From Chryseobacterium polytrichastri (lineage in GTDB: Bacteria > Bacteroidota > Bacteroidia > Flavobacteriales > Weeksellaceae): a DNA stretch of 64,000 nucleotides. The DNA lies in the NCBI RefSeq assembly GCF_900142445.1, contig NZ_FRAV01000005.1:124001-188000 (forward strand), given 5' to 3'. The notes below the pieces were generated by a model. It made no database searches, was not told the DNA's origin, and worked only from the letters and a program-made list of their open reading frames with translations. The position numbers were made by a program, and so were the translations under genes. Below, one piece after another: positions 36,840-48,151 of the stretch; the stretch's first letter is position 1, and the number at the start of each line of letters is the position of its first letter.

Positions 36840-37679
36840 TTATCTATAACGTTTGGATTCCATTATAGAAATTGGAATATTACCACTCCCTGTATTTCGG
36901 GCAAATATTGAACCATTCTGATAGAAAAAGACAAGATTAGCACCAGAAGGAAAGCTAAAAGTAATATCTGCCGTATAAGAAGCAACCGAGCTATTGTTAT
37001 TACTTGTTGTGGTAACAGTCATAGGATATCGTGTACTACCAGATCCACTCCCCGCTATAGCATTAGAATAAGAAAAACCTGTATTAATACCAAAGTTTAC
37101 AGTAGCCAAAATATTACTTCCAACTCCAGCAGTCCCGAAAACTAATGCTGAACTCACTTTAAAGGTAGCAAGACCAAAAGCAGGCATGTCTACAATGCTA
37201 ATACCAGCAGTGCTATTAGGGGTAACATAGACTCCGTCAAAATTCGATGCAGTTACGGTGTTAGAAAAAGGATCATAAGCTTTCACCACATGTCCATTTA
37301 CATCAATATAAGCAGGAGACAAATGGTTATAATCTACTCCGGGCCTTGCAACACCGGCGCGCTGGTTTTGAGTAGAAGGAACATTATCTAGTTTCAGATT
37401 TGAACGATCTGTCCTACCATAAAGATTCACCAATGCATCATTTGTCACATCAGGAGTAATATTATCTGATTTTCCGATATAACTCCTACTATCTTCATAC
37501 ACGGTGATATTATTAGCATTTGAAGCGTTGCTGTTCTGAATATTTAAAATTTTATTTGTGGGAACAGCTGTTGATGAAACAACATCAAGAGTCGCTGTGG
37601 GTGTTGGGGTATTTATACCAACCTGCGCAGATAAACATACGCAATAGAATAAAGAAATAACGATTAGCTTTTTTTTCAT
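36840..37679 (-). CDS. Exported protein, downstream copy of a tandem pair
   Basis: A 279-residue protein with a signal peptide (cleavage LSAQ) followed directly by VGINTPTPTATLDV, the N-terminal signature common to a large set of Bacteroidetes exported proteins and resembling the start of phage tail-fibre/collar domains. The rest is Asn/Ser/Thr-rich beta sequence with no recognised domain and no T9SS tail. It is about 85% identical by eye to the neighbouring 279-residue protein; differences cluster at residues 20-70 and 165-215. Function unknown, probably surface-related. Confidence 0.75.
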   Translation of the reverse strand: MKKKLIVISLFYCVCLSAQVGINTPTPTATLDVVSSTAVPTNKILNIQNSNASNANNITVYEDSRSYIGKSDNITPDVTNDALVNLYGRTDRSNLKLDNVPSTQNQRAGVARPGVDYNHLSPAYIDVNGHVVKAYDPFSNTVTASNFDGVYVTPNSTAGISIVDMPAFGLATFKVSSALVFGTAGVGSNILATVNFGINTGFSYSNAIAGSGSGSTRYPMTVTTTSNNNSSVASYTADITFSFPSGANLVFFYQNGSIFARNTGSGNIPISIMESKRYR

Positions 37680-37736: not shown

Positions 37737-38576
37737 CTATTGGTAACGTTTGGATTCCATTATAACAATTGAAATGCTACCACTCCCTGTATTTCGGACA
37801 AATATTGAACCATTCTGATAGAAAAATACAAGATTGGGACCAGAAGGAAAGCTAAAAGTAATATCTGCCGTATAAGAAGCAATCGAATTGCTGTTATTAC
37901 TTGTTGTAGTAACAGTCATAGGATAACGGGTACCATCAGATCCACTCCCTGACATAGCATCAGAATAAGAGAAACCTGTATTGACATCAAAGTTTACAGT
38001 AGCCAAAATATTATTTCCAACCCCTAGAGTACCGAAAACTAATCCTGAGCCCACTTTAAAGGTGACCAGACCAAAACTGTCTACCGTTACAATACTAATA
38101 CCAGCAGTGCTATTAGGGGTTACATAGATTCCATCAAAATTCGATGCAGTTACGGTGTTAGAAAAAGGATCATAAGCTTTCACCACATGTCCGTTTATAT
38201 CAATATAAGCAGGAGATAAATGGTTATAATCTACTCCCGGCCTTGCAAAACCTGCACGTTGGTTTTGAGTAGAAGGAACATTATCTAGTTTCAGATTTGA
38301 ACGACCTGTCCAACCATAAAGATTCACCAATGCATCATTTGTCACATCAGGAGTAATATTATCAGGTCTTCCAACATAGCTCCTACTGTCTTCATATATG
38401 GTGATATTATTCGCATTTGAAGTCCTACTGTTCTGAATATTTAAAATTTTATTTGCGGGGGCTGCTGTTGATGAAACAACATCAAGAGTCGCCGTGGGCA
38501 TTCGTGTATTTATGCCAACCTGTGCAGATAAGCATACGCAATAAAATAAAGAAGCAACAATTATTTTTCTTTTCAT
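37737..38576 (-). CDS. Exported protein, upstream copy of a tandem pair
   Basis: A 279-residue paralogue of the next gene on the same strand, with the same length, signal peptide and VGINTRMPTATLDV motif. The 57-bp spacer between the copies resembles the sequence upstream of this gene (a poly-T stretch then AAAATTGT.TAAATTATTTTTT), so the duplicated unit included the upstream region. No function can be assigned; being tandem and slightly diverged, the pair may provide antigenic or ligand variation. Confidence 0.75.
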   Translation of the reverse strand: MKRKIIVASLFYCVCLSAQVGINTRMPTATLDVVSSTAAPANKILNIQNSRTSNANNITIYEDSRSYVGRPDNITPDVTNDALVNLYGWTGRSNLKLDNVPSTQNQRAGFARPGVDYNHLSPAYIDINGHVVKAYDPFSNTVTASNFDGIYVTPNSTAGISIVTVDSFGLVTFKVGSGLVFGTLGVGNNILATVNFDVNTGFSYSDAMSGSGSDGTRYPMTVTTTSNNSNSIASYTADITFSFPSGPNLVFFYQNGSIFVRNTGSGSISIVIMESKRYQ

Positions 38577-39098: not shown

Positions 39099-39467
39099 TT
39101 ATTCACTTTTATATTCACCATCCATATCTTTAAAAGCCCATTCTGCCATTTGATGGATAACGGGAATTAATCCTTTACCCGCTTTACTTAATTCATAGGT
39201 AACATGAGGAGGAACTACAGGTTTTGCAATTCTGATCACTAAACCATCTGCTTCCAATTGTTTAAGATGCTGAATGAGTACTTTTTCTGTCACAGCTGGA
39301 ATCGCCCGTTTCAAAACACTGTATCTTTTATCACCGTTCGAGAGTTGGTATAAAATAATCGGTTTCCAATGCCCTCCAATCTTTTCCATTACATAGGTAA
39401 CAGGGCATTTGTCTAATGCATATTTTTTATTCTGCTGAATCGTAGAGCTTTCTTTAATGGCTGTCAT
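39099..39467 (-). CDS. HxlR family transcriptional regulator
   Basis: A 122-residue winged-helix regulator of the HxlR/DUF24 type: CPVTYVMEKIGGHWKPIILYQLSNGDKRYSVLKRAIPAVTEKVLIQHLKQLEADGLV. The conserved N-terminal cysteine (CPV, residue about 21), the redox-sensing residue in this family, is present, so electrophile or quinone sensing is plausible. It is divergent from the NAD(P)-binding protein gene, with two TACT-N8-AGTA palindromes in the shared promoter region. Confidence 0.92.
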   Translation of the reverse strand: MTAIKESSTIQQNKKYALDKCPVTYVMEKIGGHWKPIILYQLSNGDKRYSVLKRAIPAVTEKVLIQHLKQLEADGLVIRIAKPVVPPHVTYELSKAGKGLIPVIHQMAEWAFKDMDGEYKSE

Positions 39468-39473
39468 GATACA

Positions 39474-39503
39474 TACTTTAGGGTAAGTACTTGTATAAAA
39501 GTA
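39474..39503. promoter_or_regulatory. Candidate HxlR operator (two TACT-N8-AGTA palindromes)
   Basis: TACT (39474-39477) pairs with AGTA (39486-39489), and TACT (39488-39491) with AGTA (39500-39503), each with an 8-bp spacer. GTAAGTAC is also directly repeated at 39483 and 39501. Palindromes of the TACT...AGTA type are known sites for regulators of this family. The second site covers the -33 element of the plus-strand promoter. Confidence 0.55.
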
Positions 39504-39521
39504 AGTACAAATATACCTTTG
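39491..39521 (+). promoter_or_regulatory. Promoter of the NmrA-like gene
   Basis: TTG (39491-39493), a 20-bp spacer, and TACCTTTG (39514-39521) match the Bacteroidetes promoter. Transcription would begin about 39526, supporting the translation start at 39548 rather than the longer open frame beginning at 39491. Confidence 0.7.
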
Positions 39522-39547
39522 TTATCAGAAATAAAAAAATATTACTT

Positions 39548-40426
39548 ATGGAAATTATTATCACAGGTTCGTTAGGAAATGTAGCGAAACCACTAGCTCA
39601 ACAACTTATTGCAGAAGGTCATCATATCACTGTAATCAGCAGTAATGAATCTAAAAAAAGTGAAATTGAATCTTTAGGAGCAAAAGCTGCCATCGGTTCT
39701 ATTACAGATGTAGATTTCTTAGTTACCACTTTTGAAAATGCAGATGCAGCTTTCTTGATGACGCCTCCCAACATGGGTGGAGTGGATATTGTAGAAAACA
39801 CCATTAATGCAGGAAAAAATTATGCTGAAGCCATTTCGAAAACAGGCGTTAAAAAAGTAGTTATGCTCAGCAGCATCGGTGCTGAATCTCCTGTAGAAAC
39901 AGGTCCAATAAAAGGACTTCATCATATTGAAAAATTATACTCCGATCTAGAAAATACCGATGTAACTTTCTTGAGAGCAGGATATTTCTACATTAATTTC
40001 TTTAATGACATTCCTTTAATTCAAAATGCTGGAATCATTGGTGCTAATTATCCTGAAAGTGCAAGTGTTCCATTAGTTCATCCAATTGATATTGCAAAGG
40101 CTGCTGCAGAAGAATTAGTAAAAGATTCTGAAGGCAAGACTATAAAATATATTGTAAGTGATGTTCGTCCAGCCTCTGATTTTGCAAAAGTTTTCGGTAC
40201 TGCCATCGGAAAGCCAGAACTTCCTTGGGTTGAATTCAAAGATCAAGATTCTCTAAACGGAATGTTACAAGCCGGACTTCCTAAGGAAATGGCTGAATTA
40301 TATACTGAAATGGGAAGAGGCGTTAGAACAGGAATTGTTCAAAAAGATTTTCTGGAGCATGGTTCGCCTGTTGAAGGAGAAACTAAATTAGAGGAGTTTG
40401 CTAAAGAGTTTGCATTAAAATTCTAA
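39548..40426 (+). CDS. NAD(P)H-binding NmrA/SDR-like oxidoreductase
   Basis: A 292-residue atypical short-chain dehydrogenase beginning with the dinucleotide-binding strand MEIIITGSLGNVAKPLAQQL and continuing with the NmrA/YtfG layout (MLSSIGAES, FLRAGYFYINF, HPIDIAKAAAEELV). Homologues such as QOR2 reduce quinones; others are regulatory sensors. The start at 39548 is chosen because the promoter lies inside the longer frame. The divergent HxlR regulator, the usual partner of such genes, suggests induction by electrophiles. Confidence 0.87.
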   Translation: MEIIITGSLGNVAKPLAQQLIAEGHHITVISSNESKKSEIESLGAKAAIGSITDVDFLVTTFENADAAFLMTPPNMGGVDIVENTINAGKNYAEAISKTGVKKVVMLSSIGAESPVETGPIKGLHHIEKLYSDLENTDVTFLRAGYFYINFFNDIPLIQNAGIIGANYPESASVPLVHPIDIAKAAAEELVKDSEGKTIKYIVSDVRPASDFAKVFGTAIGKPELPWVEFKDQDSLNGMLQAGLPKEMAELYTEMGRGVRTGIVQKDFLEHGSPVEGETKLEEFAKEFALKF

Positions 40427-42064: not shown

Positions 42065-42607
42065 TTATTGCTTTGTCAAAATATAATCATATTTTATTTT
42101 TACATTTTCTGCCACTTTTTTAGTAACCATTTTAGGAACTGTAACTTTATAATCTACCGGCTTAACTGAAAAAGCTCCCTGCATAAGTATTTTACCATCT
42201 TTGGTATATATATTTGCAATAGATGAGACTTCTTTATTTACACCATGAAAATTTAATATCCCATTTACTGTATATTTTTGAGGTGTTGCTGAAAGTTTAT
42301 TCTTATCAAAGTTTTGAATTTTTCCTTTAAAACTTGTCTTTGGATATTTTTCAGATTCAGCATAACTTTCATTAAAATGCTCCTCCATTAATTTTACTTT
42401 AAACTTAAAGTTTTTCACAACAGATAATGTTGCTAATTCTCCAGTATCAGTATTTAACACAGCAACATTTGTTTTATCTAAAGCATATACATCTTCAAAA
42501 AGTGGTACAGACGCTTCAAAACTCACTTTTCCTTCTTTTGAAAGATATTTTTGGGCAAAAGTTAGATTTACCATAAATATCAATGTCGCTATAATAATTT
42601 TTTTCAT
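42065..42607 (-). CDS. YceI family periplasmic protein (cluster A)
   Basis: A 180-residue exported protein; the ATG at 42607 gives a clean signal peptide (cleavage near LTFAQ), whereas the longer open frame overlaps the preceding gene. The YceI lipocalin-like barrel is recognisable from GKVSFEASVPLFEDVYALDKTNVAVLN, FKVKLMEEHFNESYAESEKYPKTSFKG and the C-terminal VPKMVTKKVAENVKIKYDYILTK. YceI proteins bind isoprenoid lipids such as quinones in a hydrophobic tunnel. It is the last gene of the three-gene cluster A and a clear paralogue of the YceI gene in cluster B. Confidence 0.9.
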   Translation of the reverse strand: MKKIIIATLIFMVNLTFAQKYLSKEGKVSFEASVPLFEDVYALDKTNVAVLNTDTGELATLSVVKNFKFKVKLMEEHFNESYAESEKYPKTSFKGKIQNFDKNKLSATPQKYTVNGILNFHGVNKEVSSIANIYTKDGKILMQGAFSVKPVDYKVTVPKMVTKKVAENVKIKYDYILTKQ

Positions 42608-42627
42608 ACATTTTATTATTAATATAA

Positions 42628-42978
42628 TTAATTTTCTAAAAGACCATCTGATTTCCATTGAATAAATGTATTGATTTGGCTAGGAGATAAAGCCCCTCCC
42701 GGAGGCATTCTTCCAGGCGCACCATTTGGCCTTTGTATTCTATCAATAATATTATCAATATGTTCTTTTACTTGATTGTAATTGGTAAAAGGGCGGAAAG
42801 CTGCAGGACCACCTGGAGAATGGCACCCAAGGCATCTCTCCTTAATAATAGGTTCCACTTCTACCGTGTATTTTACTATATCATTAATTGGTGTTGTATC
42901 AGATATTTGTTCAAAAGTTCTACTATCACATGATATTAAGAACACAGAAAACAATACAATATTTATTACTTTTTTCAT
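42628..42978 (-). CDS. Cytochrome c-type lipoprotein (cluster A)
   Basis: A 116-residue lipoprotein. The signal peptide ends at a lipobox (FLISC, C17). A mono-haem site CLGCH (C49, C52, H53) is followed by SPGGP, and GRMPPG supplies M91 as probable distal haem ligand. The C-terminal helix SPSQINTFIQWKSDG is typical of class I cytochrome c folds. Start at 42978 leaves a 1-nt gap to the preceding DUF5777 gene, an arrangement conserved in cluster B. It probably shuttles electrons at the envelope. Confidence 0.9.
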   Translation of the reverse strand: MKKVINIVLFSVFLISCDSRTFEQISDTTPINDIVKYTVEVEPIIKERCLGCHSPGGPAAFRPFTNYNQVKEHIDNIIDRIQRPNGAPGRMPPGGALSPSQINTFIQWKSDGLLEN

Positions 42979-42979
42979 A

Positions 42980-43828
42980 TTAAAAAACTCTATAAAGATT
43001 AAACCCAAAATAAATATTCCCTTTCCCCCAATTTCCAACTACATTTGTTAAATAGCCAATATCAGAATTAAGACGAGAATTACTAAAAACAAGTTGGAAA
43101 ATATGCCCGCCAGTTTCAACGTCCATACCTAATGACAGTGGATTTTTATAAAAACTATGATTATCATAATTTACAAAATACTCCGCATTTACAGATACTC
43201 TTTTTGAAATCTTATAGCGACCACCCAAACCTGTTAAAAATTGATTTTTTCCTTCTATAGTTGGTTCATATAAGTTCTTATGAACATAGGAAGGTGTTAA
43301 CTGCACTGAAAATTGATCACTTACTCTTCTCGATATTAATACTTGAGAGAGGTAGGAAAGTCTATCACTAAATCTAAGATTAGGGTAAGTATCTTTACTA
43401 AATTGTGTATTAGCTGCTATAACATTATAGCCAACAACATCTACAGGAAAGTGATCACTTTGTTGGAGAAGTCTGTATTTAGCACCCAACTCAAATGTTT
43501 TCATATTGGTTTCTCTAGATAGGCTTACAGAAATACCATCGGTAACACCATAAATGGCTCCCAATTTAGTTGAAGCAGCATCTAAACCAAAGAAATCTTT
43601 AAACCCCGTACTTACATCACCAAATCGATGGGCAATAACAATGTACCATTCATTTTTTGAAACAAGTTTAGTAGATTGCCCCGTTACGATCTGTAAGGCT
43701 TTAAATGCAGGAGGCGAAATCTCTACACTCTTCTTACTTTGTACTGTATCAATTTCTTTCAATAGGTCTTCTTGACCGAACGACCAACTTGAAAAAAACA
43801 ATATTGTATAAAAGTACTTTTTTTTCAT
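42980..43828 (-). CDS. DUF5777 family beta-barrel protein (cluster A)
   Basis: A 282-residue exported protein (start at 43828, or at 43834 two codons earlier; signal peptide ending SWSFGQ). It has the DUF5777 sequence: PPAFKALQIVTGQSTKLVSKNEWY, VIAHRFGDVSTGFKDFFGLD, VSLSRETNMKTFELGAKY, and a barrel-type C-terminus ending GFNLYRVF. It is predicted to sit in the outer membrane. It is strongly similar to the DUF5777 protein of cluster B. The function of the family is unknown; the constant neighbours are a cytochrome c and a YceI protein. Confidence 0.88.
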   Translation of the reverse strand: MKKKYFYTILFFSSWSFGQEDLLKEIDTVQSKKSVEISPPAFKALQIVTGQSTKLVSKNEWYIVIAHRFGDVSTGFKDFFGLDAASTKLGAIYGVTDGISVSLSRETNMKTFELGAKYRLLQQSDHFPVDVVGYNVIAANTQFSKDTYPNLRFSDRLSYLSQVLISRRVSDQFSVQLTPSYVHKNLYEPTIEGKNQFLTGLGGRYKISKRVSVNAEYFVNYDNHSFYKNPLSLGMDVETGGHIFQLVFSNSRLNSDIGYLTNVVGNWGKGNIYFGFNLYRVF

Positions 43829-44339
43829 TATCATTTTTTGTTTTAAGTTTAAAACAATGATATTAAAAAAAATTATTTGAGAAAACACACTTAGTGTATA
43901 TGCTTGATTTTAAGAATAAAAAAAAACAATACTCAATAACAAAATACTATGAAATAATTTTACTAAAGAAAAAAATCATCAATAGAAGATAAAAATTACA
44001 GAGCATAAATAAATGCAAACTTAATATTTTACGCTTAATGGAAATAATTAATGAATATTATAGTAAAAATAATATCCATTAATTATTTATAAAAAAATAG
44101 AGCAATATTAGGTGTAACCATTGAAATTTAACCATAAAAAACACATAAACAATTATTAACAATAAAAAGTCACAATATTAATCTCTTATTTGTAACTATT
44201 CATAAGAAAATACACATTCCCTTATTGAAAACATTTTTCTTAAAAAGACAATATTAGAACATTCTCTTTTTAAATTATTATAAATGAAAAATCCCCAAAA
44301 GATTTAACTTTTAGGGATAAAAATAATATATTATTAAAA
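43829..44339. other. AT-rich region between the two redox clusters
   Basis: The 511 bp hold the start of cluster A and, at 44287-44322, the terminator of cluster B. A near-consensus -7 element TATCATTG lies at 43862-43855 (minus strand). A degenerate GTGT-N6-TCAA sequence (43890-43877, minus strand) matches only 6 of 8 bases of a Crp box. No open frame is convincing. Confidence 0.5.
44287..44322 (-). terminator. Terminator of redox cluster B
   Basis: The stem ATCCCCAAAAG / CTTTTAGGGAT (one mismatch) is followed by TTTTTCATTT on the minus strand, 17 bp after the stop of the DOMON gene. Confidence 0.75.
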
Positions 44340-45098
44340 TTATTCTTTAATTAATTTCTGGTAAGATACACTTCCATCTTTTAATTTAACTTCAAAATAA
44401 TAGCTTCCGGATTGTAGATCAGAAACACTGATATTTTCTCCGTTCACCTGAACCGATTTTACCTTCCTTCCTGTTGCTTCATAAATATCAATAGATTTTA
44501 TTTTATCTGCATTTTTGAAATTCACAGTTTCTTTTGCAGGATTCGGATAAAGAACAACTTTTTTACTTTCAGCTAACAGATCATTAGTTCCTAATGTTCC
44601 CGTCATACTTAGCGTGGTATATCCTCTATTTCCACCACCGTGATAGCCACTTGACAAAGCAGTTCCAGGCCCTTTAGCAAAAAAGATATTTACACTTCCC
44701 GCAGCGTTTGCAATGGCCGTATCTCCCGCTCCTCCTGATAATGATCTTGTAGCAACTACTGTTCTTATTCCTCCAGCAGTTGTATTTGAAGTTTGAGTCC
44801 AGTCTTGGGAGGCATCTGCTGTAGGTGTTACCCCAATTCCACCAAAAGTATAATCCCTATTTGCAGAGGCATTGTAAATAAATCCATCTGCTCCGTTTGA
44901 CATTCCTGAGCCTACATTTCCGAAGCCGATTCCTAAATAAGAAGTATCAGCACCCGTAAGTGTTATTGTTGCTAAGGTTGAAGAAGTATCCAACTTTACC
45001 GTCATACCAGTTGACCCCAAGCTTACCGTACCAGAGGAAAACTGTGCTCCTACAGTGCTTGCAAGAGCTAAACTTAATGTGAGTAAAACTTTTTTCAT
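44340..45098 (-). CDS. T9SS-secreted DOMON-domain protein, probable b-type cytochrome
   Basis: A 252-residue protein: signal peptide (cleavage near TVGAQ), a DOMON-like domain (about 20-175) and a T9SS type A sorting domain (VVLYPNPAKETVNF ... YQKLIKE). The DOMON features are the strand 'TSYLGIGFG', M66 in SGMSNGADGF, 'DYTFGGIGV', the ATRSL and VNIFFAKG strands, and H153 in GYHGGGNRGY. In cytochrome-type DOMON domains a Met and a His in these positions bind haem b; that assignment is inferred here. The gene is last in cluster B, 3 bp after the ankyrin gene. Confidence 0.75.
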   Translation of the reverse strand: MKKVLLTLSLALASTVGAQFSSGTVSLGSTGMTVKLDTSSTLATITLTGADTSYLGIGFGNVGSGMSNGADGFIYNASANRDYTFGGIGVTPTADASQDWTQTSNTTAGGIRTVVATRSLSGGAGDTAIANAAGSVNIFFAKGPGTALSSGYHGGGNRGYTTLSMTGTLGTNDLLAESKKVVLYPNPAKETVNFKNADKIKSIDIYEATGRKVKSVQVNGENISVSDLQSGSYYFEVKLKDGSVSYQKLIKE

Positions 45099-45101
45099 AT
45101 A

Positions 45102-45629
45102 TTAATTTTTTAAGAGATTAATAATTTCTTTATTGTTTGTTTGTAAGGCATATTCAAAAGGAGTCATTCCCATTGAATCTTTTTTTAGTTTATCGGCTTT
45201 ATATTTTACCAATAATTCTATTAATTCTTTATTCCCAAATTTTACAGCCCAGAAAAGAGGTGTAGATCCTGTAGCATCTGCAATATTAGGATCTGCATTT
45301 TTGCTTAATAAATACATCACCAAATCTTTATTATACTTTACCGAAAGTCCGGCCAATGCAGTTCCTTCCTGGCTTTTATAATTAAGATCTTTTACATGAT
45401 CCATTAAAAACTTAGCAACCTCTGTGTTTCCTCTGTAGCAAGCTAAAATAAGAGGAGAAAAACCACTTTCGTTGGTTTCATTGATGCTGTTTGGATCTTT
45501 CTTCATCAATTCTTTAACCTCAGCCACACTCCCATTTCTCGCAATATCAAAAATAGATTTTGTTTTTTCCTGAGCAATCGCAAGTGAGAATCCCAGAAAA
45601 ACACTTAGTATTAAGATTAATTTTTTCAT
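45102..45629 (-). CDS. Exported ankyrin-repeat protein
   Basis: A 175-residue protein with a signal peptide (cleavage near SLAIAQ) and four to five ankyrin repeats: 'IARNGSVAEVKELMKKDPNSINETNESGFSPLILACYRGN', and later units ending in TPLFWAVKFGNKELIELLVKY and TPFEYALQTNNKEIINLLKN. Exported ankyrin proteins next to redox enzymes are known, for instance AnkB beside catalase KatB in Pseudomonas, where it protects the enzyme. The start codon overlaps the YceI stop (TAATG), showing translational coupling. No counterpart exists in cluster A. Confidence 0.9.
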   Translation of the reverse strand: MKKLILILSVFLGFSLAIAQEKTKSIFDIARNGSVAEVKELMKKDPNSINETNESGFSPLILACYRGNTEVAKFLMDHVKDLNYKSQEGTALAGLSVKYNKDLVMYLLSKNADPNIADATGSTPLFWAVKFGNKELIELLVKYKADKLKKDSMGMTPFEYALQTNNKEIINLLKN

Positions 45630-46171
45630 TATTTTGAAAGAATATAATCATACTTGACGTTCACATTTTCTGCCACTTTTTTAGATACCATTTTAGGAAT
45701 GGTTACATTATAATCTGCAGGTCTGGCAACAAAACCTCCTTGCATATAAATCTTCCCATCCTTGGCATATATTGTTGCAGAGGATGTAACCGCCTTGTCT
45801 ACCCCATGAAAATTAAGTTTCCCTTGTAGCGTATATTTTTGTGGTGATGCAGTAAGCTTCGCTTTATCAAAATTGGCAAGCTTTCCTGTAAAAGTTGCTT
45901 TAGGATATTTTGCTGATTCCGCATAATTTTCATTGAAATGCTCTTCCATTAGTTTCACGGTAAATCTATAATTCTTCACCATAGAAACAGAAGCTATTTC
46001 ACCAGTATCAGCATTTAGAATAACCAAATTATTACTATCCTTGGCACTGATATCTTCAAATAACAGAACTGATGCTTCAAAGCTTACCTGTCCTGTTTTA
46101 GAACTATATTTCTGAGCCAATGCAAGATTACCACATAGTAACGATGCAACAATTAATACTACATTTTTCAT
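45629..46171 (-). CDS. YceI family periplasmic protein (cluster B)
   Basis: A 180-residue exported lipocalin-like YceI protein (signal peptide ending NLALAQ), paralogous along its whole length to the cluster A protein: GQVSFEASVLLFEDISAKDSNNLVILN, MEEHFNENYAESAKYPKATFTGK, VPKMV/IPKMVSKKVAENVNVKYDYILSK. Expected to bind an isoprenoid quinone or similar lipid in the periplasm. It lies 11 bp after the cytochrome gene and overlaps the ankyrin gene by 1 nt. Confidence 0.9.
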   Translation of the reverse strand: MKNVVLIVASLLCGNLALAQKYSSKTGQVSFEASVLLFEDISAKDSNNLVILNADTGEIASVSMVKNYRFTVKLMEEHFNENYAESAKYPKATFTGKLANFDKAKLTASPQKYTLQGKLNFHGVDKAVTSSATIYAKDGKIYMQGGFVARPADYNVTIPKMVSKKVAENVNVKYDYILSK

Positions 46172-46182
46172 TTTTCTCTTTT

Positions 46183-46533
46183 TTAATTTTCTATAGAACC
46201 ATCAGCTTTCCACTTAATGAAAAAATTGATCTGACTTTGTGATAATGATGTACCTGGAGGCATTCTTCCCACAGCTCCGACTGGCCTTTGTATTCTGTCT
46301 ACAATATTGTCTATTTCTGCTTTTACCAAATTATAATTTGTTAACGGGTAAGCAGAAGCAGGACCTCCGGGTGAGTGGCATCCAATACAATTGGTTTCAA
46401 TAATAGGTTTTATATCCGTCTCATATTTTACAATTCCGGTGATGGGTGTATTATCTGAAATTTCTTCATAGGTTCTGCTTTCACAAGCCATTAATACAAC
46501 CGCTGATGATAGTAAGTATAGTATCTTTTTCAT
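46183..46533 (-). CDS. Cytochrome c-type lipoprotein (cluster B)
   Basis: A 116-residue lipoprotein, paralogue of the cluster A cytochrome, with exactly the same key positions: lipobox cysteine C17 (VLMAC), haem site C49-I-G-C52-H53 and ligand M91 (GRMPPG). The start at 46533 leaves a 1-nt gap to the DUF5777 stop; the junction sequence is almost identical to that in cluster A. Confidence 0.9.
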   Translation of the reverse strand: MKKILYLLSSAVVLMACESRTYEEISDNTPITGIVKYETDIKPIIETNCIGCHSPGGPASAYPLTNYNLVKAEIDNIVDRIQRPVGAVGRMPPGTSLSQSQINFFIKWKADGSIEN

Positions 46534-46534
46534 A

Positions 46535-47377
46535 TTAAAAAACTCTATAAAGGTTAAACCCAAAGAAAATCTGTCCTTTATCCCATTTTCCGGTAGCGTT
46601 TGTAAGATATCCTATATCTGAATTAAGCTGAGAATTACTGAATACAAGCTGGAAAACGTGTCCGCCAGTTTCAATATCCATCCCTAATGATAAAGGGTTT
46701 TTATAAAAACTGTGGTTATCAAAATTCACAAAATATTCTGCGTTGATGGAAATCCTTTTAGAAATCTTATATCTCCCTCCCAGCCCTGTTAGGAACTGAT
46801 TTTTATCTTCAATATTTGGTTCATAAAGATTCTTGTGTACATAAGAAGGTGTTAGCTGTAAAGAAAGCTTGTCATTAAACCTTCTTGAGATCAAAGCCTG
46901 AGTAAGATAAGAAAGCTTGTCATTGAATTGAAGATGTGGATAATTATCTTTGTTAATATCTGTTCTCAGTGCCATCACATTATAACCAACAATATCTACA
47001 GGAAAATTATCATTCTGTTTTAGGAGACTGTATTTGGCTCCTAATTCAAAGGTTTTCCCATTCGTTTCTCTAGAAAGACTTAAAGAAAGGCCGTCTGTAA
47101 CACCATAAATAGCTCCCAACTTTGTAGAAGCCTGATCAAGGCCAAAGAAATTTTTAAAACCTGTGCTGATATCTCCAAAACGATGGGCAACTACGATGTA
47201 CCATTCATTTTTTGCAGTAAGTTTGGTAGATTGTGCTGTGACAACCTGTAAGCCTTTGAAGGCAGGCTGCGAAATATCTGTGTTTGTTTTAATGGTGTCA
47301 ATATCTTTCAACAAATCTTCCTGAGAAAAGGCAAGACTTGATGAAAGTATCGACAAAAATAATAGAGTTTTTGTCAT
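46535..47377 (-). CDS. DUF5777 family beta-barrel protein (cluster B)
   Basis: A 280-residue exported barrel protein (signal peptide MTKTLLFLSILSSSLAFSQ). The ATG at 47377 is preferred to the in-frame TTG at 47383. It shares most residues with the cluster A paralogue, including SQPAFKGLQVVTAQSTKL, VVAHRFGDISTGFKNFFGLD and GFNLYRVF. It is the first gene of the five-gene operon, with a TAAGTTTG promoter element and a Crp-type box upstream. Confidence 0.88.
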   Translation of the reverse strand: MTKTLLFLSILSSSLAFSQEDLLKDIDTIKTNTDISQPAFKGLQVVTAQSTKLTAKNEWYIVVAHRFGDISTGFKNFFGLDQASTKLGAIYGVTDGLSLSLSRETNGKTFELGAKYSLLKQNDNFPVDIVGYNVMALRTDINKDNYPHLQFNDKLSYLTQALISRRFNDKLSLQLTPSYVHKNLYEPNIEDKNQFLTGLGGRYKISKRISINAEYFVNFDNHSFYKNPLSLGMDIETGGHVFQLVFSNSQLNSDIGYLTNATGKWDKGQIFFGFNLYRVF

Positions 47378-47435: not shown

Positions 47436-47451
47436 TGTGATAAAAGTCACC
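47436..47451. promoter_or_regulatory. Crp/Fnr-type binding site
   Basis: TGTGA-TAAAAG-TCACC is a near-perfect GTGA-N6-TCAC palindrome. Its centre is about 40 bp upstream of the predicted transcription start of cluster B, the usual class II activator position. The Crp/Fnr gene just upstream has a recognition helix suited to GTGA. Confidence 0.75.
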
Positions 47452-47494: not shown

Positions 47495-48151
47495 TTAGAC
47501 TGGGCTAACATTTTCTTTTACAGGGATTTTGATTCCTTCTTTGCTCTGAACGATTTCTCCTTCGTTTTCAATTTTTTTCAAAACTCTGCTTACCACTTCT
47601 CTGGAAGTTCCTAAACTACTAGCAATTTCCCTATGCGTTAATTTTATCGGATGATTGCCCGTGATAGAGATTTGTTGTTTAATATAGCTTAAAACTCTTC
47701 TGTCAAGTCTATGAAAAACCGCTTCATTCACCATATTCATTACATCAGAAAAGCGCTTGTCATATTCACTGTAAAATACTCTGTTGATTTCCGGAAATTT
47801 GATGAGCCACTCATGCACCACAGATACGGGGATTAGCAAAACTTCTGAATCTTCTTCCGCAATAGCATAAACACGACTTATATAGTCACTAAAAATAGAT
47901 GAAAAAGTCATGAGGCAGCTGTCGTTAGGTCGAATATAATAGTAGATTAATTCTCTTCCGTCATTTAATGAAAAAACCTTTATAGACCCCTTAACCAAGA
48001 AAGGGACATATTTATTCTTTTGTCCTTCCTGAATAATTTCTGTTTTTGCCTTTATGGTAGCTACAATTGCATTTTTTTGGATTTCATTTGAAAAACCAGC
48101 TCCCAGAAACCCAAATTTATTAAGAATAAACTGATTATTTATCACATCCAT
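47495..48151 (-). CDS. Crp/Fnr family transcriptional regulator
   Basis: A 218-residue regulator: N-terminal cyclic-nucleotide-type barrel (IIQEGQKNKYVPFLVKGSIKVFSLNDGRELIYYYIRPNDSC), dimerisation helix and C-terminal helix-turn-helix (LTHREIASSLGTSREVVSRVLKKIE). The recognition helix keeps R184, E185 and R189 in the arrangement of E. coli CRP (RE..xR), which reads GTGA. It lacks the N-terminal cysteine cluster of oxygen-sensing FNR, so a different signal is expected. Start at 48151 is supported by the promoter just upstream. It likely controls the redox operon that follows. Confidence 0.9.
   Translation of the reverse strand: MDVINNQFILNKFGFLGAGFSNEIQKNAIVATIKAKTEIIQEGQKNKYVPFLVKGSIKVFSLNDGRELIYYYIRPNDSCLMTFSSIFSDYISRVYAIAEEDSEVLLIPVSVVHEWLIKFPEINRVFYSEYDKRFSDVMNMVNEAVFHRLDRRVLSYIKQQISITGNHPIKLTHREIASSLGTSREVVSRVLKKIENEGEIVQSKEGIKIPVKENVSPV

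Follow-up and report, generated by a model that had tools for sequence, protein, structure and literature searches.

A paired DUF5777, cytochrome c and YceI gene module in Chryseobacterium polytrichastri and its possible role in electron transfer at the outer membrane

What could an outer-membrane barrel, a lipid-anchored cytochrome and a YceI lipocalin do together, and why are their genes found twice in a row? The question is raised by a 64,000-nucleotide stretch of Chryseobacterium polytrichastri DNA (contig NZ_FRAV01000005.1, positions 124,001 to 188,000; hereafter the window), in which two gene modules lie on the minus strand throughout. Module B (44340-47377) encodes, in this order, a DUF5777 barrel, a cytochrome c, a YceI lipocalin, an ankyrin-repeat protein and a DOMON-fold protein with a type IX secretion system (T9SS) sorting tail. 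Module A (42065-43834), about 0.5 kb downstream, holds a second set of the first three. A Crp/Fnr-family regulator gene stands 5' of module B and, beyond it, DUF3467 and rpoC, the latter identified from sequence. Our tentative answer, held with somewhat less than even confidence, is that the module, which recurs across phyla, is a quinol-linked electron relay to the outer membrane, and that copy B ends at a T9SS-exported DOMON protein carrying haem b at the cell surface.

The gene assignments rest on profile matches and motif residues. Both barrels (copy B, 46535-47377, 280 aa, E 1e-84; copy A, 42980-43834, start at 43834 or 43828, E 2.9e-83) match PF19089, with 284.1 and 279.3 bits for the two copies against a curated cut-off of 23.1. 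The YceI proteins (copy B, 45629-46171, E 5e-11; copy A, 42065-42607, E 1.9e-9) exceed the PF04264 cut-off of 23.7 with 43.6 and 38.5 bits, and their matches span only profile positions 50-147 and 51-147 of 150. Both cytochromes (copy B, 46183-46533; copy A, 42628-42978) stay below the curated cut-off of Cytochrome_CBB3, so their identification as mono-haem cytochromes c rests on motifs: each has 116 aa, a lipobox cysteine (C17), one CXXCH motif (C49, C52, H53) and a distal methionine (M91), at equal positions in the two copies. The first-pass annotation of the window had described the same trio in the same order on one strand in two adjacent sets, with identical haem-ligand spacing and a shared 1-nt junction between barrel and cytochrome genes. 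Coordinates, residues and the junction itself (TAA-T-ATG in each copy) agree with that description. The genome (5.14 Mb) contains 9 YceI genes, and this cytochrome has just two matching genes in it, both at this locus, so the grouping is not due to chance.

Is the trio peculiar to this genome? A first survey covered the window and 176 loci around DUF5777 genes, none much longer than 15 kb, all searched with iterated profiles; 156 loci came from a draw across the phylum, where a DUF5777 match was present in 153 of 395 genomes, and 20 from the genus. Partners were counted on either strand within 4 kb of each of the 178 DUF5777 copies, which are non-independent draws, as some genomes gave several loci and the genus is over-represented. 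YceI was found near 158 copies and the cytochrome near 149. At least one of cytochrome, YceI and Rieske protein lies near 176 copies, and at least one electron carrier near 163. The two copies without any partner are L109 and L200, the latter on a 3.5-kb contig. Other neighbours were an OB-fold (oligonucleotide/oligosaccharide-binding fold) protein (PF12869, 43 copies), DOMON (34), ankyrin (34), Crp/Fnr (30) and extracytoplasmic function (ECF) sigma genes (28), and, more rarely, Rieske (15), NrfD (8), iron-sulphur (FeS, 8) and EB_dh (6) proteins. The family as a whole is large: 5001 proteins matched at E ≤0.001 among 5895 candidates scored.

The association reaches beyond this phylum. In a second scan, a profile built on remote members of the family was run against named genome records, and the best 80 of 361 relatives were followed up; 7 of these loci coincide with the first set and 73 are new. 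The new loci are labelled Calditrichota (18), Ignavibacteriota (16), Gemmatimonadota (15), Bacteroidota (8) and Zixiibacteriota (4), with four further phyla represented once each and no phylum given for 8; the records are metagenome-assembled genomes by title, and the lone odd labels may be binning errors. Of the best 80, 76 have YceI, 62 the cytochrome and 61 both; 77 have one partner or more, and two of the three partnerless loci are cut at a contig end. Among the 73 new loci the counts were 69 for YceI, 55 for the cytochrome and 54 for both. The annotation's proposal that DUF5777 stands beside a cytochrome lipoprotein and YceI is thus borne out, with both present near 131 of the 178 first-survey copies and at least one partner in 70 of the 73 new loci. 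The dominant gene order in the second scan is cytochrome-YceI-DUF5777, and the DOMON and ankyrin profiles matched nothing in the best 80 of 361. Judged by gene order and content, the three-gene set is thus probably ancient, and the arrangement in which DUF5777 comes first and ankyrin and DOMON genes are added is probably a later form. Co-presence was also counted in whole genomes. In a search of 40 genomes, in which no more than 105 candidates per genome (out of up to 229) were scored, the cytochrome profile matched all 20 genomes that have DUF5777, its best match adjoining the DUF5777 gene every time, and 4 of the 20 without it. Three of these four have frames of 471 to 1101 aa and one (G107) has a small stand-alone frame.

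What chemistry do the carriers suggest? In the aligned cytochromes, C49, C52 and H53 are kept in 139 of 140 and M91 in 137 of 140. As a side observation, 43 of the 140 (for example in L088 and L138) have a CX4CH motif instead of CX2CH. No clear surface-export signal was seen on the cytochromes: two acidic residues at positions +1 to +5 occur in 26 of 147 lipobox-like sequences, and more than two in none. Fourteen of the 15 copies with a nearby Rieske protein lack the cytochrome, and the Rieske motif is present in 14 of the 15. In a quick tree built from 177 DUF5777 proteins, at least seven changes are required for the Rieske label, all forced by supported branches, with L103, which has both carriers, scored as Rieske. 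Because a Rieske protein has repeatedly replaced the cytochrome, we take the job of this partner to be electron transfer, and we rate these swaps, read from gene content, as the best evidence for it.

YceI itself may be exchanged too. All eight NrfD loci (L060, L066, L075, L088, L092, L095, L120 and L130), a candidate respiratory variant, also encode a 4Fe-4S protein; all have the cytochrome and none has YceI, so that NrfD occurs only where YceI is absent. The NrfD and 4Fe-4S pair is presumably a quinone-linked membrane oxidoreductase. YceI and NrfD/FeS may thus be alternative links to quinone, a pattern that occupies few branches of the tree. EB_dh, a relative of the DOMON fold, occurs with a lipobox-like N-terminus in four of the eight NrfD loci and in two loci without YceI and NrfD; one EB_dh match of the second scan (L213) is near YceI. 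As for what YceI could carry, structures of the family contain ubiquinone-8 or related isoprenoids, according to the part of the literature consulted here (PMC9113575).

The barrel is the member of the trio for which a role is hardest to assign. The AlphaFold2 model of copy B has 12 strands and a predicted local distance difference test score (pLDDT) of 92.7. By structure comparison the fold resembles the 12-strand porins KdgM and NanC, from which DUF5777 differs in sequence (10-15% identity over the aligned part), in its redox neighbours and in the predicted outer-wall position of its most conserved residues. Among 177 proteins, H65, F67, H240 and F242 are each kept in 174, G273 in 177, F274 in 176 and R278 in 173, with four gapped; in the best 80 of the 361 second-scan relatives H65 is kept in 80, H240 in 79 (one gap), R278 in 78 (two gaps) and G273 in 68. 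The hydrophobic/polar alternation of strands 1, 11 and 12 predicts that H65, F67, H240, F242, F274 and R278 face the lipid, and that the lumen side carries charges that are less strictly conserved. Conservation of the C-terminal strand may partly serve barrel assembly. We also considered whether H65 and H240 bind a haem or a metal within the barrel, and dropped this idea because the alternation places both residues outside. No CXXCH motif upstream of the barrel, as a fusion with the cytochrome would have, was found in seven frames longer than 340 aa, a set that leaves aside the long frames of L198 and L199. Sequence searches gave no meaningful relative of solved structure for DUF5777, the cytochrome or YceI.

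Module B adds two proteins to the trio. The annotation had listed an exported ankyrin protein and a secreted DOMON protein. The former holds (45102-45629; Ank_2, E 1.2e-28); the latter found no Pfam DOMON match at E 0.01, where only the T9SS tail was matched, and is upheld by fold and ligand positions. By structure comparison, the protein at 44340-45098 matches the DOMON domain of dopamine beta-hydroxylase, the gamma subunit of ethylbenzene dehydrogenase and the cytochrome domain of cellobiose dehydrogenase. With the last two it shares the fold and a conserved Met/His pair (H153 in 27 of 27, M66 in 25 of 27), which we take, from cellobiose dehydrogenase, to be the axial ligand positions of a predicted haem b. 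The difference is that here it is a separate protein with a T9SS tail, in an operon without a catalytic subunit. The tail is of the T9SS type A sorting class (TIGR04183 and PF18962; fold match 8gl8). At E <1e-50 the DOMON protein was found in all 13 genus genomes with a full-length DUF5777 and in none of the 7 that lack one; the matches listed for these 7 are mostly to the T9SS tail. Ankyrin genes lie near 34 of the 178 DUF5777 copies, with DOMON present every time, and ankyrin proteins serve haem proteins elsewhere (AnkB, Cj1386). A defence function for module B was rejected: of the six proteins compared with PADLOC, five have no match and the ankyrin protein hits two models, both of ankyrin type.

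From these pieces the relay may work as follows. YceI would ferry (mena)quinol out from the inner membrane. At the outer membrane, the lipid-anchored cytochrome (in other lineages, the Rieske protein) would accept electrons one at a time from this quinol, as the gene swaps suggest. The 12-strand barrel may be a docking platform, offering the His/Phe/Arg patch predicted on its outer wall. In copy B the DOMON protein would hand the electrons to an extracellular acceptor, and the ankyrin protein may help it mature or hold it. The Crp/Fnr regulator likely turns on copy B through the GTGA-N6-TCAC site. If this holds, a very common family marks an undescribed link between the quinone pool and the outer membrane, and DUF5777 gains a testable role, for which the named residues, the Rieske-for-cytochrome swap and the regulator with its candidate site are handles. 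In the open-licence literature we found no paper that names DUF5777, and nothing on YceI with a c-type cytochrome in Flavobacterium or on YceI with menaquinone in flavobacteria.

Several observations weigh against this relay. A cytochrome would not fit into a 12-strand barrel, and a surface haem should be out of reach for a single haem in the periplasm, which leaves the step across the outer membrane unexplained. We know of no member of the genus that performs extracellular electron transfer. No carrier lies within 4 kb of 15 of the 178 copies and no DOMON gene near 144, so neither is needed everywhere. The exclusivity of cytochrome and Rieske protein is incomplete, since both occur in L103 and in the second-scan Rieske loci L238 and L244. 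The small stand-alone cytochrome of G107 occurs without DUF5777, and G413, which lacks a full-length DUF5777, has a weak match to the DOMON protein (residues 18-249, 27% identity, E 3.9e-11). The facing of H65 and H240 was read from strand alternation and not from coordinates. Three loci whose barrels lack H65 and H240 (L064, L071 and L184) keep YceI and the OB-fold gene, and none of them has a carrier within 4 kb. This pairing speaks for the barrel's part in the relay, but as all three belong to a single supported clade it counts as one event and not as a statistic; in L064 and L071, a histidine stands one position off in the alignment. The annotation's broader suggestion of electron transfer across the envelope therefore fared unevenly: the redox part gains from the cytochrome/Rieske swaps, the DOMON fold and the Met/His pair, whereas transfer through the barrel loses from its 12 strands, the single haem motif and the conserved outer wall. 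For the same reason, a barrel too narrow for a cytochrome, a conduit like MtrCAB is unlikely, with 12 predicted strands and one haem motif per cytochrome. The likeness would lie in an outer-membrane barrel with haem proteins on both sides and the difference in the narrow barrel and single haems found here; in MtrCAB, as far as the source describes it, a 26-strand barrel encloses a decahaem cytochrome (PMC8406198).

Could the module protect the envelope instead? YceI quinol near the outer membrane would quench lipid peroxyl radicals, the cytochrome or Rieske protein would recycle it and DUF5777 would anchor the pair. We regard this as unlikely, and as the best of the rival explanations. It has a precedent in Burkholderia, where the YceI protein BcnA and a linked cytochrome b561 guard envelope lipids from peroxidation, as described in the part of the report relied on here (PMC9113575). 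BcnA-LcoA of Burkholderia cenocepacia is also alike in the linkage of a YceI lipocalin to a cytochrome gene, the envelope location and the quinone in YceI structures, and YceI with cytochrome is the commonest linkage in our survey. The genus is, moreover, largely aerobic. An antioxidant needs an electron supply to the outer membrane, however, and the small soluble-type cytochrome is no obvious quinone reductase, whereas LcoA is a membrane cytochrome b561; here the partner of YceI is a CXXCH lipoprotein, and no b561 match was found among the ten neighbouring genes scanned. For BcnA-LcoA, the same part of that report mentions neither an outer-membrane barrel nor a surface haem protein, nor a Rieske alternative to the cytochrome. 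The surface DOMON protein and the YceI-free NrfD loci fit protection poorly, and DUF5777 is also found in lineages usually called anaerobic.

Another explanation, which we consider improbable, is a split version of Cyc2, in which a small redox solute (an iron or copper ion or a phenolic) enters the narrow polar barrel and the lipoprotein cytochrome oxidises or reduces it at the periplasmic mouth. Cyc2 of iron oxidisers likewise combines a mono-haem cytochrome c with a small outer-membrane barrel, and differs, in the portion of the source used, in being one fused protein with 16 predicted strands (PMC8406198). Here the genes are separate and 12 strands are predicted, the strongest conservation is seen on the predicted outer wall and not in the lumen, and YceI, which is extra, is left unexplained. 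Quite improbable, in our view, is that DUF5777 is itself an outer-membrane quinol site, with the patch of H65, F67, H240, F242, F274 and R278 holding YceI-delivered quinol that the cytochrome c or Rieske protein would oxidise, and with the quinone carrying electrons into and across the membrane to surface haem-b proteins. Were it true, quinol chemistry in the outer membrane would be common to Bacteroidota, Ignavibacteriota, Calditrichota, Gemmatimonadota and others. Least probable is a sensory or assembly module to which electron transfer is incidental, and in which cytochrome and YceI report the envelope redox state or handle haem or lipid. The lineage-specific regulators that adjoin it would suit it (Crp/Fnr and ECF sigma; among the first 140 loci, 12 have FecR and 12 have TonB-receptor genes), but any operon may be regulated by such genes, and only with difficulty could a module that moves no electrons account for the exchange of cytochrome for Rieske protein and for the complete haem ligands.

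The relay remains our preferred reading, and the question of the two copies can be taken up on its own. The annotation called the module a tandem duplication. The copies do stand side by side, but a recent event is contradicted: A and B share 72 of 116 aligned residues in the cytochrome, 116 of 179 in YceI and 210 of 278 in DUF5777 (62-76%). A tree of the concatenated trio (41 rows) places both within the genus clade (27 rows, support 100/99), with their position in it unresolved and A on a long branch. These identities and the tree rule out copy A as a recent duplicate; by sequence comparison, A and B are old, diverged copies. The GC content is 31% in module A vs 35% in module B. In the genus sample, 112 of 118 genomes have a DUF5777 match, 111 of them above the cut-off. 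Two full-length genes are present in 5 of the 118 and adjacent only in the genome of the window; in the other four they are on different contigs or distant. Every named organism among the 120 barrel relatives listed is a Chryseobacterium, the closest among these matches being C. glaciei (92%). Separately, the extra module copies at L153, L158 and L159 are near-identical across three genus genomes and have flanking genes in common, which suggests horizontal transfer of the whole module.

How module B is controlled can be proposed from its 5' side, where the annotation's gene list had overlooked both the Crp/Fnr gene and a palindrome. The regulator (47495-48151, minus strand; 218 aa counted from the ATG; Pfam HTH_Crp_2 and cNMP_binding) has one cysteine, in place of the four Fe-S cysteines of Fnr, and therefore lacks an Fnr-type Fe-S site. 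The window has a single Crp-type palindrome GTGA-N6-TCAC, at 47437-47450 in the stretch that separates crp from DUF5777. One occurrence per 64 kb is within chance (mean 0.49), so its reading as an operator rests on its conserved place. The motif lies upstream of 29 of 143 DUF5777 frames, equal to 28 of 142 copies since L172 gives two pieces, and 27 of these 28 copies have a crp-profile match in the locus (the exception is L157). Of the 30 crp-profile loci in the 143-frame set, L039, L070 and L080 lack the motif. The palindrome is thus likely the operator of module B. Copy A has no such site, regulator, ankyrin or DOMON gene, and without site and regulator would be under other control. In L172 (G454), a genus genome, DUF5777 is in three pieces. 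A terminator-like hairpin lies 3' of module B (44291-44318, minus strand; consensus match only).

Some neighbouring genes deserve mention. The small OB-fold protein (PF12869, tRNA_anti-like), with an N-terminal hydrophobic stretch, stands beside DUF5777 in 43 loci (for example L097:7789-8211). A 433-aa protein with an outer-membrane barrel domain is found beside 24 of the 178 copies (for example L105:4982-6280), usually with an ECF sigma gene adjacent. In the window, two very similar 279-aa proteins with signal-like N-termini (36840-37679 and 37737-38576, minus strand) form a further tandem pair. Near module A, 39099-40426 holds what we take, from the sequence, to be an NmrA-like NAD(P)-binding gene and an HxlR-type regulator. 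NmrA-like genes also flank the transferred second copies (L158:9033-9938 and L159:9033-9938), possibly by coincidence.

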